From positions 303,357-367,356 of the forward strand of contig NZ_WKEQ01000001.1 in the NCBI RefSeq assembly GCF_021605415.1: 64,000 nt of DNA, written 5' to 3'. Under the pieces are notes generated by a model. That model ran no database searches, had not been told where the DNA came from, and worked only from the letters and a program-made list of their open reading frames with translations. Below are positions 31,877 to 40,473 of this stretch, in pieces (the stretch's first letter is position 1; each line of letters opens with the position of its first letter). This stretch comes from Pseudomonas syringae (lineage in GTDB: Bacteria > Pseudomonadota > Gammaproteobacteria > Pseudomonadales > Pseudomonadaceae). A program made the position numbers and the translations under genes.

Positions 31877-32236
31877 GTGAAAAAGAACAGCCAGATTTTG
31901 CTTGATGAACTGCTGCAAACCTTGCCGCAAACCACTGAACCTGTGCCGTTGCCTCGGCGCCCTTCCAGGCCCCGCGCCAAGCCCCCGCTCAAACAGATAA
32001 TCCGGGGTCGACCTGACATCGAAACACCCGTGCTGCTGGCCAATGCCCGGGATAACCTCACGTCCCTCAACTGCATCTGCGAGCGCTTTGCCGAAGAGTT
32101 GGAAGGTGATTCGCGCAAGAAAGCGCTGGCAATTCATCAATTGACGGTGCTCGCAGAAATGCTCATTAGCCGTGCGTTGGAGAGCCTCGATCCGACTCAA
32201 CCCCCTGCTTTGGCCGCACCTGCCGTTGTCCATTGA
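31877..32236 (+). CDS. Small protein distantly related to DUF6124
   Basis: Function unknown. GTG at 31877 follows AGGGAG by 6-7 bases and gives 119 aa; an in-frame ATG at 31844 has no ribosome-binding site. The N-terminal half is Pro/Arg-rich (PLPRRPSRPRAKPP), the C-terminal half helical. Its last 60 residues align by eye with the DUF6124 protein at 39153-39515: LLANARDNL / LLADASESL, then RKKALAIHQLTVLAEMLISRALE / RKTLQGIAQVVMLAELAVNRVLD. The gene stands alone between two terminators. Confidence 0.7.
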   Translation: MKKNSQILLDELLQTLPQTTEPVPLPRRPSRPRAKPPLKQIIRGRPDIETPVLLANARDNLTSLNCICERFAEELEGDSRKKALAIHQLTVLAEMLISRALESLDPTQPPALAAPAVVH

Positions 32237-36806: not shown

Positions 36807-38726
36807 ATGAATAGCTGGTTCGGCAACATCAGCGTGAACCTGAAACTGGGCCTGGGATTCGGCCTCGTCCTGGCACTGACCTGCGTCCTGGCCCTCACCG
36901 GCTGGACGAGCCTGGGCGGATTGATTGACCGCAGCAACTGGATGAGCGACATCACCCAGCTCAATTCCGGCCTGACTAAACTGCGTGTGGTGCGCCTGCA
37001 ATACATGCTGACCAACGGCGACGAAACCGCCGCGCAGAATGTGCAGACCACCCTTGAGAAATTTACCGCGCAACAAGATGCGGTCATTGCCAAGTTCAAG
37101 AGCCCGGAAAATCTAAAACTGCTCAAAGAGCAGGCGAAGCTTCTCACCGAGTATCAAGTGTCACTGAACAAGATGCGCAACGCGTACCGCAACGGCACCA
37201 CCGCCCGCGATGCCATGACCGCCGACGCAGCCACCGCCAACGCGTTGATCGAGGCCATCAATACCAGCGTCCAGCAAATGCCGTTGAGCGACCAGCGTTT
37301 CGAGCAGTATCAGGCCATCACCGCCGCGAAGGAGGCATTCATCCTCGCGCGCTATGAAGTGCGTGGCTATGTCGCCAGTGCCAACGCCGACACCGAAAAG
37401 AAAGTCGCCGATCAACTCGATGCGTCGATCGCCAGCCTGAAACAACTGAACGCGTATTTCGCCGACTCCCAACAGGACGCCCTGCGTCAGTTGGAAACCG
37501 CACTGACCAGCTATCGCAGCAGCGTGCTGGCGTTCAAGCGCTCCACGGCCGAAGCGGTGCAGGCGCGCAAGGAAATGACCGACCAGGGCAACACCATCGT
37601 GTCCCTGAGCGAGCAGCTGTATCAGATCCAGCTCGACCGCCGCGACGCCGAAAGCGCCCAGGCGCGCACCTTCCAGTTGATCAGCACGTTGCTGGCCCTG
37701 CTGGTGGGCGTGATTGCCGCCGTGATCATCACCCGTCAGATCACCGGCCCGTTGCGCGACACGTTGGCCGTGGTCGAACGCATCGCCAGCGGCGACCTGT
37801 CCCAGGACGTCAAAGTCACCCGCCGCGATGAACTTGGCGTATTGCAACAAGGCATTGCGCGCATGGGCGTGACCCTGCGTGATTTGATCAGCGGCATCCG
37901 CGATGGCGTCACCCAGATCGCCAGCGCCGCCGAAGAACTGTCCGCCGTCACCGAGCAGACCAGCGCCGGCGTGAACAGCCAGAAAGTCGAGACCGATCAG
38001 GTCGCCACCGCCATGCACGAGATGACCGCCACCGTGCAGGAAGTCGCGCGCAACGCCGAAGAAGCCTCGCAAGCGGCCGCCGCCGCTGACGGCGAAGCCC
38101 GTGAAGGCGACAAAGTGGTCAACGAAGCGATTGCCCAGATCGAACGTCTGGCCACTGAAGTGGTGCGTTCCACCGAAGCCATGAGCGTGCTGCAACAGGA
38201 AAGCGACAAGATCGGCAGCGTCATGGACGTGATCAAAGCCGTGGCCGAACAGACCAACCTGCTCGCGCTCAACGCCGCCATCGAAGCGGCCCGTGCCGGC
38301 GAAGCCGGTCGCGGGTTTGCCGTGGTGGCCGACGAAGTCCGTGGCCTGGCCCAGCGCACGCAGAAATCCACCGAAGAAATCGAAGGTCTGGTTGCCGCGC
38401 TGCAAAACGGCACGCAACAAGTGTCGGCCGTGATGAACAACAGCCGCGCCCTGACCGACAGCAGCGTGACCCTGACCCGCAAGGCCGGCTCGTCCCTGGA
38501 AAACATCACCCGCACGGTGTCGAACATCCAGTCGATGAACCAGCAGATCGCCGCCGCTGCCGAGCAGCAAAGCGCTGTCGCCGAAGAGATCAGCCGCAGC
38601 ATCATCAACGTGCGCGATGTCTCGGAACAGACCGCTGCGGCGAGTGAAGAAACCGCAGCGTCGAGTGTCGAACTGGCGCGGTTGGGCAATCAGTTGCAGA
38701 TGATGGTTTCGCACTTCCGCGTGTGA
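36807..38726 (+). CDS. Methyl-accepting chemotaxis protein
   Basis: Inner-membrane chemoreceptor of 639 aa. TM1 at about residues 11-33, a long (about 255 residues) all-helical periplasmic domain consistent with a helical bimodular (HBM) ligand sensor, TM2 around [21 protein letters not shown] domain ([21 protein letters not shown]), then the signalling coil with the conserved tip [43 protein letters not shown] 6 bases before ATG 36807 decides against GTG 36804. The ligand is unknown; HBM receptors often sense organic acids or polyamines. The 278 bp upstream shows no identifiable operator. Confidence 0.92.
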
Positions 38727-38815
38727 TCTTCAGTCCGCGCTGAATCGGAAAATCGCGAGCAGCCGGCTCGCGATTCGCCCTCAATGGCACCCTCGATTAA
38801 ACGCCATCCGCAATG
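38727..38815. repeat. Left copy of direct repeat flanking the DUF6124 locus
   Basis: Segments CTTCAG, TGAATCGG-AAA-CGCGAGC, CCGGCTCGC and CGATTAAACGCCAT-CGC recur in the same order and orientation at 39527-39685. It contains a perfect 10-bp hairpin AATCGCGAGC / GCTCGCGATT (38751-38775) that may also end the chemoreceptor transcript. Confidence 0.7.
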
Positions 38816-38954
38816 CGCGTTTAAAGACACCTCGCGAAACGTCGTATCCCCCACAAAACCTTGCGCCATTGCCTACGGCTACGCCAGAATCCGCCGGCTT
38901 GTGCGTCTTGAGGTTGGTCGGTAATTTGGCTCGTATCACTGATTCCCAGTGATC
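38816..38954. other. Non-coding stretch before the DUF6124 leader
   Basis: Part of the 426-bp gap between the chemoreceptor and DUF6124 genes. I find no gene in it. A short palindrome CACTGATTCCCAGTG lies near 38938-38952, and GGTCGGTAATTTGGCTCGTATCACT precedes it, possibly the promoter region of the next gene. Confidence 0.35.
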
Positions 38955-39152
38955 GGGTTTAGCAGCCCGGCTAGAGATACGCGGCAGTACAGGTCTATCC
39001 AGTCAGGCATTTGCCTGCGCTCGATGGTGGCTGTGCGCATGGCATCTTCGGGTGCGCCGGAGGCTCGTATCTCTACCGGTCTGCTAACTTGCGCACAGCT
39101 GCCTCCTTTTCGTTTAGCAGCGAATCGGTTGTGGCCCGACTGGAGATACGCA
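38955..39152 (+). promoter_or_regulatory. Structured leader of the DUF6124 gene
   Basis: Three copies of a bipartite motif GTTTAGCAG ... GAGATACGC: forward at 38957-38982, inverted at 39066-39088 (GTTAGCAG...GAGATACGA on the minus strand) and forward at 39112-39151, where GGAGATACGC provides the ribosome-binding site of the gene. A long-range stem pairs 39026-39039 with 39090-39103 (GCTGTGCGCA / TGCGCACAGC core). Inside it are a UUCG-capped stem (39042-39055) and CCGG pairs; a further hairpin CAGGC-ATTT-GCCTG lies at 39004-39017. This much paired structure suggests an RNA element controlling translation. Confidence 0.6.
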
Positions 39153-39515
39153 ATGTTCAAAGTAACGCCCAACCCGCCGATCACCGATCCGGCATCGCCC
39201 TACGAATCCCTCGACTCAAAAAAACTCAACGACGCCGCCGAACGCGCGCTCGATCATTACCTCAATCCTGCCGCGCTGATCATGTCCGCGCCCTACACCG
39301 CCAACGCCCTGTATCAGGCCAATCCCGACGCCGATATCGAAGCCTTGCTGGCCGACGCCAGCGAATCGCTCGGCTCGGCCACCGTCATGCTCAACAATCA
39401 CGCGGCGCAAGTCGAGAGCACACACCGCAAGACGTTGCAGGGTATCGCGCAAGTGGTGATGCTGGCGGAATTGGCGGTGAACCGGGTGCTGGATAAGGTT
39501 GTGCCGGCAGGCTAG
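39153..39515 (+). CDS. DUF6124 family protein
   Basis: Small Pseudomonas-type protein of unknown function, 120 aa. The N-terminus MFKVTPNPPITDPASPYESLDSKKLNDAAERALDHYLNP is characteristic of the family, followed by an Ala-rich helical half (EALLADASESLGSATVMLNNHAAQVE, then GIAQVVMLAELAVNRVLD). No signal peptide, Cys or catalytic motif. The RBS GGAG lies inside a motif repeated three times in the leader. The gene stands alone, flanked by long direct repeats. A diverged relative is at 31877-32236. Confidence 0.85.
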   Translation: MFKVTPNPPITDPASPYESLDSKKLNDAAERALDHYLNPAALIMSAPYTANALYQANPDADIEALLADASESLGSATVMLNNHAAQVESTHRKTLQGIAQVVMLAELAVNRVLDKVVPAG

Positions 39516-39714: not shown

Positions 39715-39777
39715 CTCAGACACTAATCGCATTGGTAAACACCAACCGATTCCCGAACAGCTCATCCACAAAACCAT
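39715..39777 (-). pseudogene. Duplicated 3' end of a glyoxalase gene
   Basis: On the minus strand it reads NGFVDELFGNRLVFTNAISV and a stop, nearly identical to the end of the glyoxalase at 40522-40890 (DPFGNRLVFTNAICV). At DNA level 39715-39760 matches 40521-40566 with three mismatches, including 34 identical bases in a row (39725-39758). It begins right after the toxin stop codon. No start or upstream coding part is present. Confidence 0.85.
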
Positions 39778-40197
39778 TCAAGCCTTCCAAGGGTTGATCA
39801 CGTCGAGGCCACTAAACTCAAAATCCTTCACATTGCGCGTAGCGATCAACAAAGCATGTGTCCGACAGATAGCGGCAATCTGAGCGTCAGCCATAGACGC
39901 CGTTCGTCCTTTCGCTTCGCAATGGGCTACGAGTTTCGCGTACTCGACGGCGGCATGGGCATCGAACGGCAGAATCCGATCCGCAAAATCTTCCTCAAAC
40001 ATAGCCATCGCCTGAGCCTCAAGCTTCTGTTTTCGCTTGCCGAAAGGAAGTCGGGCTACGCCGTGAAGTATTTCAGCGACAGTAATGGCGGTGATAGCAA
40101 GATCCATAGCCGGTTGCGCATCAATCCAGGCAAGTACTCTGATCTCGGGCTCGACCCGCATGAACTCTGACAGGACATTGGTATCGAGCACTATCAT
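39778..40197 (-). CDS. PIN-domain toxin (FitB/VapC type)
   Basis: Probable Mg2+-dependent endoribonuclease of a type II toxin-antitoxin pair. The 139-aa protein starts MIVLDTNVLSEFMR (first acidic residue D5), has ITVAEILHG (acidic E in the second motif), and ASMADAQIAAI (third Asp) followed by ATRNVKDFEFSGLDVINPW, the standard PIN order. The start overlaps the antitoxin stop as ATGA. All acidic residues are kept, so it should be active. FitB-like annotation follows from the type of antitoxin. Confidence 0.93.
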   Translation of the reverse strand: MIVLDTNVLSEFMRVEPEIRVLAWIDAQPAMDLAITAITVAEILHGVARLPFGKRKQKLEAQAMAMFEEDFADRILPFDAHAAVEYAKLVAHCEAKGRTASMADAQIAAICRTHALLIATRNVKDFEFSGLDVINPWKA

Positions 40198-40439
40198 TCA
40201 GAGAAGTCCACCGCCGTCGCTTGTTCCGAACGGGAGGGTAAATCAAGTGCTTCTCCTCCCAGGTCTCGAAACCTGTTGCGGATTCGGCTTCCCAACCCTC
40301 CAGCCCGATCAACCGAGGCAAGTGCTCTCCCCAAAATCAAGCGAGCTTCTTCCTCCATGGAATGCCCGTTGAGGGCGGCAGTTATGCGGAGCTGCTCTTT
40401 GATCTCGTCATCAAGATTACGAATTGTAATGCTGGCCAT
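40194..40439 (-). CDS. FitA-like ribbon-helix-helix antitoxin
   Basis: Binds and neutralises the adjacent PIN toxin and represses the operon. From ATG 40439 it is 81 aa: MASITIRNLDDEIKEQLRITAALNGHSMEEEARLIL is the Arc/FitA ribbon-helix-helix (residues 1-45). The C-terminal half (RNRFRDLGGEALDLPSRSEQ) would wrap the toxin. The frame is open upstream to 40466 but that start lies inside the operator palindrome, so the shorter form is preferred. Confidence 0.92.
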   Translation of the reverse strand: MASITIRNLDDEIKEQLRITAALNGHSMEEEARLILGRALASVDRAGGLGSRIRNRFRDLGGEALDLPSRSEQATAVDFSE

Positions 40440-40449
40440 AATGCCCCCT

Positions 40450-40473
40450 GCAATCAATGAAATCATTGATTGC
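40450..40473. promoter_or_regulatory. Palindromic operator of the toxin-antitoxin operon
   Basis: GCAATCAATGA, two bases, TCATTGATTGC: perfect 11-bp arms, 10 bp upstream of the antitoxin ATG. This is where FitA/VapB-type RHH antitoxins bind for autorepression. A possible -10 (TATGCT) on the minus strand lies just upstream (about 40480). Confidence 0.85.

Follow-up and report, generated by a model that had tools for sequence, protein, structure and literature searches.

C4 RNA is known as a phage immunity device; in P1 it is processed by RNase P, and the system involves Rho-dependent polarity. Citron and Schuster reportedly worked in 1990 on the C4 antisense RNA that P1 and P7 carry. The labels b′, a′, a2 and b2 that we use for segments of the leader described here are those of the P1/P7 C4 literature; a1 and b1 are named in the Rfam description. 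According to a review, C4 antisense RNA acts as a translational block by attaching around the ribosome-binding site, and the heteroimmunity of P1 and P7 is linked to differing C4 sequences with differing target preference (PMC12197685). Two other papers term C4 trans-acting in P1 (PMC8546580) and place the cell-division blocker Icd among the products of the P1 operon that C4 controls (PMC8201110). Weinberg et al., 2010 (PMC2864571) list C4 and c4-a1b1 for Proteobacteria and phages, and a further paper merely lists C4 RNAs on replicons (PMC12696581).

The window, by which we mean the whole stretch of 64,000 nucleotides of Pseudomonas syringae DNA that was analysed, contains a gene leader that almost certainly belongs to the C4 antisense RNA family. 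When the whole window was compared with 4227 Rfam families, positions 39020–39109 on the + strand matched the C4 covariance model (RF01695) with 62.3 bits (gathering score 45; E-value 1.2e-09) over model positions 1–87 of 87, and apart from C4 and c4-a1b1 no Rfam match up to E 1 was found in 38700–39400. The layout is likewise that of C4, in that a′ and b′ are complementary to a2 and b2 at the ribosome-binding site of the downstream gene, and a second target pair, a1 and b1, lies upstream on the same strand. Together, the match and this layout indicate that the leader is likely a translational silencer of the known C4 type, as in P1 and P7, and not a new class of riboregulator. A sequence-only reading of this DNA had proposed a riboregulator associated with DUF6124 genes, and the C4 match, its placement and the covariation described below support that proposal. 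Like the phage RNAs, the locus fits the C4 covariance model, its antisense segments can pair with sites around the downstream ribosome-binding site, and the segment names and two flanking target pairs are those of P1. It differs in its target, which in the phages is icd/ant, the anti-repressor operon of P1/P7 immI, and here is a DUF6124 gene followed by a PIN/FitA-like pair on the other strand. It also differs in being chromosomal, beside a chemoreceptor gene, and in having numerous paralogues in a single genome, whose loops differ.

Direct reading together with a repeat search confirmed that a motif occurs forward, inverted and forward in the leader: the first forward copy (+) comprises GTTTAGCAGC at 38957–38966 and TAGAGATACG at 38972–38981, the inverted copy CGTATCTCTA at 39066–39075 and CTGCTAA at 39081–39087, and the second forward copy (+) GTTTAGCAGC at 39112–39121 and GGAGATACGC at 39142–39151. 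The inverted copy is complementary to both forward ones, as had been claimed, except that the match of the first half-motif covers seven bases (TTAGCAG) and not nine. The 14-base arms noted earlier (39026–39039 and 39090–39103) do pair and fall within the stem that closes the C4 RNA, which in the Rfam model has 17 pairs, two of them mismatched (39025–39041 with 39088–39104), and the UUCG-capped stem is its first inner hairpin. All of the labelled segments lie on the + strand. The b′ antisense segment (39061–39075) is the loop of the second inner hairpin and is complementary to b1 and b2, and the a′ antisense segment CTGCTAA (39081–39087) is the linker from that hairpin to the closing stem. Upstream, a1 (38957–38966) sits in the loop of a CGGG/CCCG hairpin in the c4-a1b1 model and is followed by b1 (38972–38981), all 10 nt of which can pair with the C4 loop. 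Downstream, a2 (39112–39121) has 7 nt complementary to a′, and b2 (39141–39150), with 10 nt paired with b′, lies over the Shine-Dalgarno GGAG (39142–39145), which was correctly placed in the last motif copy, seven bases 5′ of the ATG at 39153. The target of the C4 is a DUF6124 gene of 120 aa (39153–39515, +; PF19619).

The Rfam model of the upstream targets, c4-a1b1 (RF03163, “a1, b1 targets of C4 antisense RNA”), gave a sub-threshold match at 38922–38973 (+), in the expected place, with 29.9 bits and E 1.6e-05. The likeness lies in a P0 hairpin and, behind it, a short hairpin with a1 in its loop; the difference is that the window scores below the gathering score of 46.7, a score exceeded in 6/20 loci of relatives. 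The P0 hairpin, ATCACTG/CAGTGAT (38935–38953, +), lies within the c4-a1b1 match, directly 3′ of the predicted start, and was detected in 122/129 units. A sigma-70-type promoter is predicted at 38899–38927 (+), with TTGTGC (38899–38904) and TAATTT (38922–38927) separated by 17 bases; the best sigma-70-like site is predicted with a 17-base spacer in 97 of 101 distinct upstream regions, and the predicted −10 ends 8–9 bases 5′ of the P0 hairpin in 98/101. A transcription start downstream of 39100 had been named earlier as a refuting outcome; the conserved promoter-like site is instead predicted 5′ of the first copy. We also observed that CAGAATCCGCCGGCTTGTG, at 38884–38903 in the window and at equivalent positions elsewhere, just upstream of and over the −35, is nearly unchanged in many units despite their differing loops, and it may perhaps be a shared operator. 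Similarity between the window unit and other units starts at about 38796–38819, and an inverted repeat, ATTAAACGC/GCGTTTAAA (38796–38825), was read directly at this left edge of similarity to the paralogues. As a general shared operator the repeat is unsupported, given that GTTTAAA occurs at an equivalent distance in 67/129 units and in 0/30 of those of one other genome of the genus, G010.

The comparative set comprised 129 units, namely 80 from named relatives, 30 of G010 and 19 of the source genome, which reduced to 91 distinct a′/b′ combinations with 23 linkers and 90 loops. We found that a′ pairs over 7/7 positions with a1 in 87/91 combinations, with a2 in 84/91 and with both in 83/91, single linker positions showing up to four base-pair types; foreign linkers fully paired with a2 in 1163/7214 comparisons and with a1 in 1199/7214. 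The b′ loop forms a run of at least seven with its own start region (b2) in 75/91 combinations, compared with 2013/8188 for foreign loops, and with its own b1 in 72/91, compared with 3445/8188. The 90 loops track their own start sites, the most variable loops being those that match the start site, and b1 is less distinctive than b2 and the least distinctive segment across relatives. A permutation test was run on 54 units with different loops, 45 of 99 records having been dropped for sharing loops. For every segment the own mean lay above the highest of 10000 permutations, with z of 13 to 22 for single segments and 24 for a2+b2. For b′-b2 (z 22), the own score was 20.5, compared with 12.1 for foreign loops and 14.2 for the reversed loop. 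The own target ranked first among these 54 units in 8 for a′-a2, 22 for b′-b1, 31 for b′-b2, 37 for a2+b2 and 39 for a′-a1.

The C4 stems of the relatives behave in the same manner: 96.0% of cells were paired over 65 distinct rows and 13/27 pairs were changed on both sides, with 0/500 shuffles as high, in an alignment that was fitted to the model and in which related rows inflate the pairing and covariation counts. The pairing arms therefore covary in relatives, and both pairings of the inverted copy are kept, so that the lack of covariation or conservation which the sequence-only reading had given as its refutation was not found. Both pairing options of its proposed “ready-made two-state switch” are conserved by covariation, but as an unnamed new switch the proposal is not supported, the structure being that of the C4 family. 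The minimum free energy (MFE) of the leader was −101.7 kcal/mol compared with −81.0 ± 4.8 for 200 mononucleotide shuffles, a weak control; comparative covariation is stronger evidence for the leader structure.

We next consider whether each antisense RNA fits its own gene best. An own-versus-other matrix separated poorly as long as its segments contained the GC-rich hairpin arms (the own target was first in 7, 4, 2 and 1 of 19), and a′ and b′ were then trimmed to linker and loop. When the scores of the four segments were added up, the own target came first in 16/19 source-genome units and 27/30 G010 units, the latter count suggesting that each gene likely has its own silencer; two of the three G010 units that deviate, L202 and L204, no longer have the start site or the greater part of the gene. 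For a2+b2 alone the figures were 16/19 and 25/30, and for b′-b2 alone 10/19 and 23/30. Among 125 units we compared 526 pairs matched for scaffold (scaffolds at least 90% identical, loops less than 60%), and own b′-b2 pairing beat crossed pairing in 508 of these comparisons, by a weighted pair scoring that was chosen after the outcome of longest-run scoring had been seen. The latter, in which G-U pairs carry full weight, performed weakly, with both own pairings above both crossed ones in 154/531. Four G010 units with wrong or absent start calls (L182, L191, L202 and L204) are included in the counts of 30 and 129 and were left out of the scaffold-matched and in-frame-stop tests, and L010 was left out of the scaffold-matched test. 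On its own a′ discriminates poorly, and own-target preference is exerted chiefly via the b′ loop.

The chemoreceptor gene upstream of the unit was found in 11 neighbour loci (L213–L216, L218–L224). Behind it, a C4-DUF6124 unit occurs in one of the 11, G016 (L215); in the other 10 no C4 was found within the stretch examined after the chemoreceptor gene. This presence or absence at one chromosomal site suggests that the unit is gained or lost as a block of about 0.7 kb (38796–39512), and it supports the earlier description of an RNA cassette; no mechanism for such gain or loss was seen at the compared neighbour loci. The G016 scaffold is identical to that of the window at 47/48 positions, a′ and b′ differ, a2 and b2 differ so as to match, and b1 is not kept. 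When the loops of the two units were scored on each other's targets, own b′-b2 pairings scored 22.5 and 19.0 versus 14.5 and 11.0 for the crossed ones. The own b′-b1 pairing of G016 scored 13.0 and the crossed ones 13.0 and 14.0, and a1 gave no discrimination, G016 a′ scoring 18.0 and window a′ 17.0 on window a1. By longest run, the G016 b′ reached 8 on both targets, and the weakness of this scoring, here and for the scaffold-matched pairs, was the reason that pairs were weighted instead.

The gene order in the window is chemoreceptor, C4-DUF6124, PIN/FitA-like pair and glyoxalase, the PIN/FitA-like pair (39778–40466, −) adjoining the unit. In G010 (L219), a PIN/FitA-like pair lies about 60 bp behind the chemoreceptor gene; the glyoxalase gene follows the chemoreceptor after about 0.1 kb in L213, L216 and L218 and after about 0.65 kb in L220 and L221. 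The chemoreceptor-glyoxalase interval was seen to hold different small modules in different species, and window positions 39715–39765 resemble sequence from the end of the glyoxalase gene.

From the conserved complementarity, the C4 in the leader likely silences DUF6124 by blocking translation, with a′ and b′ pairing with a2 and b2 over the ribosome-binding site. How the unit would be transcribed and processed, would repress its gene, would act in trans and might be of benefit we infer as follows. A single transcript would start just 5′ of the a1 hairpin at the conserved predicted promoter-like site, and the C4 hairpin would fold and, by analogy with P1, would probably be cut out of it. The released C4 would then act on its own or a sister transcript, a′ pairing with a2 and b′ with b2, and pairing with a1/b1 would probably either restrain C4 in the uncut leader or represent a second target. 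The unit has multiplied in the genus, and most copies keep their own lock (a2/b2) and key (a′/b′).

We tentatively suggest a further step, that the Pseudomonas repertoire may be large, mobile and fast-diversifying, with each gene silenced in trans only by its own C4. The antisense segments and their targets would be rewritten in concert, phage heteroimmunity being turned inward, and a newly acquired unit would be expressed in a recipient that has no matching key. The likeness to the heteroimmunity of P1 and P7 is that different C4 sequences appear to have different target preferences in the Pseudomonas units; the difference is that these units lie within one chromosome and serve small proteins. 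If this were true, Pseudomonas would have turned C4 into many paralogous, mutually insulated antisense regulators of small genes, which would give engineers a naturally evolved collection of orthogonal RNA silencers and offer a handle on the roles of DUF6124 and DUF3077, and natural loop swaps could distinguish cis from trans action of C4.

A purely cis-acting leader, from which C4 is never released and in which the inverted segment pairs with a1/b1 (start free) or with a2/b2 (start hidden), folding speed or a factor deciding between the two, is unlikely in our estimation, even though several observations agree with it. Both pairings are conserved (a1 87/91, a2 84/91), a1/b1 would be transcribed first, and divergent loops could arise under purely cis pairing through compensatory drift. 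The b′ segment pairs more strongly with b1 than with b2 (duplex energies −18.0 and −13.6 kcal/mol), those of a′-a1 and a′-a2 being −9.1 and −9.3 kcal/mol, and the whole-leader MFE structure joins the antisense segments to a1/b1, which keeps the two-state idea alive. That structure, however, breaks the C4 stem that covariation conserves, and it was computed by nested folding, in which pseudoknots, and thus the C4 stem and loop pairing together, cannot appear. The description of P1 C4 as trans-acting in PMC8546580 also argues against a purely cis leader, as do the low distinctiveness of b1 and its loss from the G016 unit.

Turning from the single locus to the source genome, a search with the leader DNA returned five places, and RF01695 scored over its cut-off in 5/5. 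The C4 model itself had 19 matches in the genome at E ≤ 1, 15 of them over the cut-off, and DUF6124 had 15 matches, of which 12 lie directly downstream of a C4, the pairing being assigned by coordinates. Two of these C4-preceded matches are shortened or broken (L010 and L018), and 3/19 C4 copies precede broken or shortened genes (L010, L012 and L018). The seven C4s with no DUF6124 behind them are followed by a DUF3077 gene (L009), a Bro-N/phage anti-repressor-like gene (L024), three small unnamed genes (L021–L023), a short remnant (L012) and a contig end (L006). Conversely, two apparently intact DUF6124 genes have no detected C4 (L029 and L036), and a third such match is truncated by a contig end (L034); L036, a divergent DUF6124 gene, lies within the window as well, at 32009–32182 (+).

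The targets are similarly varied across the genus. Behind the 30 best genus C4 loci (L151–L180), sorted by eye with Pfam run on representatives only, we found proteins of 52–57 aa in 13, Bro-N-like proteins in 7 (one short), DUF6124-like proteins in 5 (L155 without a full frame), DUF3077 in 2, an “RYMPLTG” group in 2 and no target in 1. The 52–57 aa proteins carry a pattern, ALNPSKIRA...ANSSLATRL.RYN, behind the best C4 of 13/30 genomes (L151–L154, L157, L160, L166, L167, L170, L173, L174, L176 and L177), and a representative, L153, had no Pfam or PHROG match. A C4 precedes Bro-N anti-repressor-like genes in L024 and L163 by test and in L165, L168, L169, L171, L172 and L175 by eye, an arrangement that is the closest in the genus to that of phage P1. 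Outside the genus, C4 targets include an anti-repressor (L326), a SymE-family gene (L327) and a gene with a weak CsrA-like match (L324; 16.8 bits, cut-off 27). The product of the window gene matched PF19619 (DUF6124) with 55.3 bits against a cut-off of 27, and Pfam returned DUF6124 alone, a family of unknown function. Its structure model is helical with a long C-terminal helical pair (62–115), a mean pLDDT of 78.1 and a pTM of 0.49. Remote homology among DUF6124, DUF3077 and the “RYMPLTG” group was not found (hhalign probabilities 0.1–1.4%).

SymE/SymR is a type I toxin-antitoxin system, in which, as at our locus, an antisense RNA covers the start region of a small gene; C4 differs in lying on the same strand as its target, probably in the same transcript. 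In G512, a genome of the same class, a C4 with a loop matching the start region precedes a SymE-family gene (L327:1501–1832; PF08845, E 7.4e-13), which suggests a capacity of C4 to act as an RNA antitoxin; two further C4s there (L324 and L328) precede two similar genes, of which the one tested is weakly CsrA-like. It is conceivable, although we think it quite improbable, that the Pseudomonas units are likewise addiction modules of the type I toxin-antitoxin kind, in which DUF6124 would be harmful when made and C4 would be its RNA antitoxin. The G512 arrangement, the gain or loss of units as blocks and the encoding of the cell-division blocker Icd under P1 C4 (PMC8201110) are all consistent with this. 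Yet DUF6124 had no match in NCBIfam or PADLOC and nothing significant among solved sequences (best E 0.77) or solved folds (best E 1.5), and the apparently intact DUF6124 genes L029 and L036 stand without a detected C4.

Strong structure 5′ of a gene might also denote a metabolite riboswitch, a thermosensor or an attenuator that is not antisense-based, which we consider very improbable. C4 and c4-a1b1 are the only Rfam matches in the region, and a ligand riboswitch in particular is rejected because the most variable loops covary with the ribosome-binding site, unlike a conserved ligand pocket. That the leader is coding sequence of a longer DUF6124 protein with incidental repeats has next to no probability, since the open frame that does run into the gene (38949–39515) is set against an in-frame stop upstream of the ATG in 123/125 units and C4-plus-spacer lengths spread over all three remainders in 80 loci (30, 26 and 24).

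We found C4 in 138/149 genus genomes (137 over the cut-off), with at least 27 in each of 33 genomes by manual count and 36 matches, 35 of them full length, in G010, and DUF6124 in 118/149. Beyond the genus, DUF6124 was found in 5/293 genomes of the order, all five of the same genus, and C4 in 7/185 genomes of the class, one being the source genome and the other six having one to three each. A C4 was detected at E 0.1 at 21/30 genus DUF6124 loci and was absent from 9/30. The best 80 named DUF6124 relatives are all Pseudomonas loci, and a C4 ends 44–55 nt 5′ of the ATG in 80/80 of them, a set that is biased because the query was built from C4-controlled genes and only the best 80 were kept. In a full-text literature search DUF6124 appeared in no paper and DUF3077 only in incidental mention, “c4 antisense” was never joined to fluorescens, nor “C4 sRNA” to Pseudomonas. 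Within these searches the scale and diversity of the C4 units look new, although the supplement of Weinberg et al., 2010 may hold chromosomal sets. The plasmid sequences searched gave no match. Among viral sequences, C4 lies 30–80 nt upstream in 55/74 DUF6124 loci of IMG/VR, and one phage record carries both DUF6124 and C4 beside prtR. On viral contigs we further observed C4-like hairpins without an evident target (L266:1869–1958 and L250:1833–1910), with a complete C4-DUF6124 unit following about 0.5 kb downstream.
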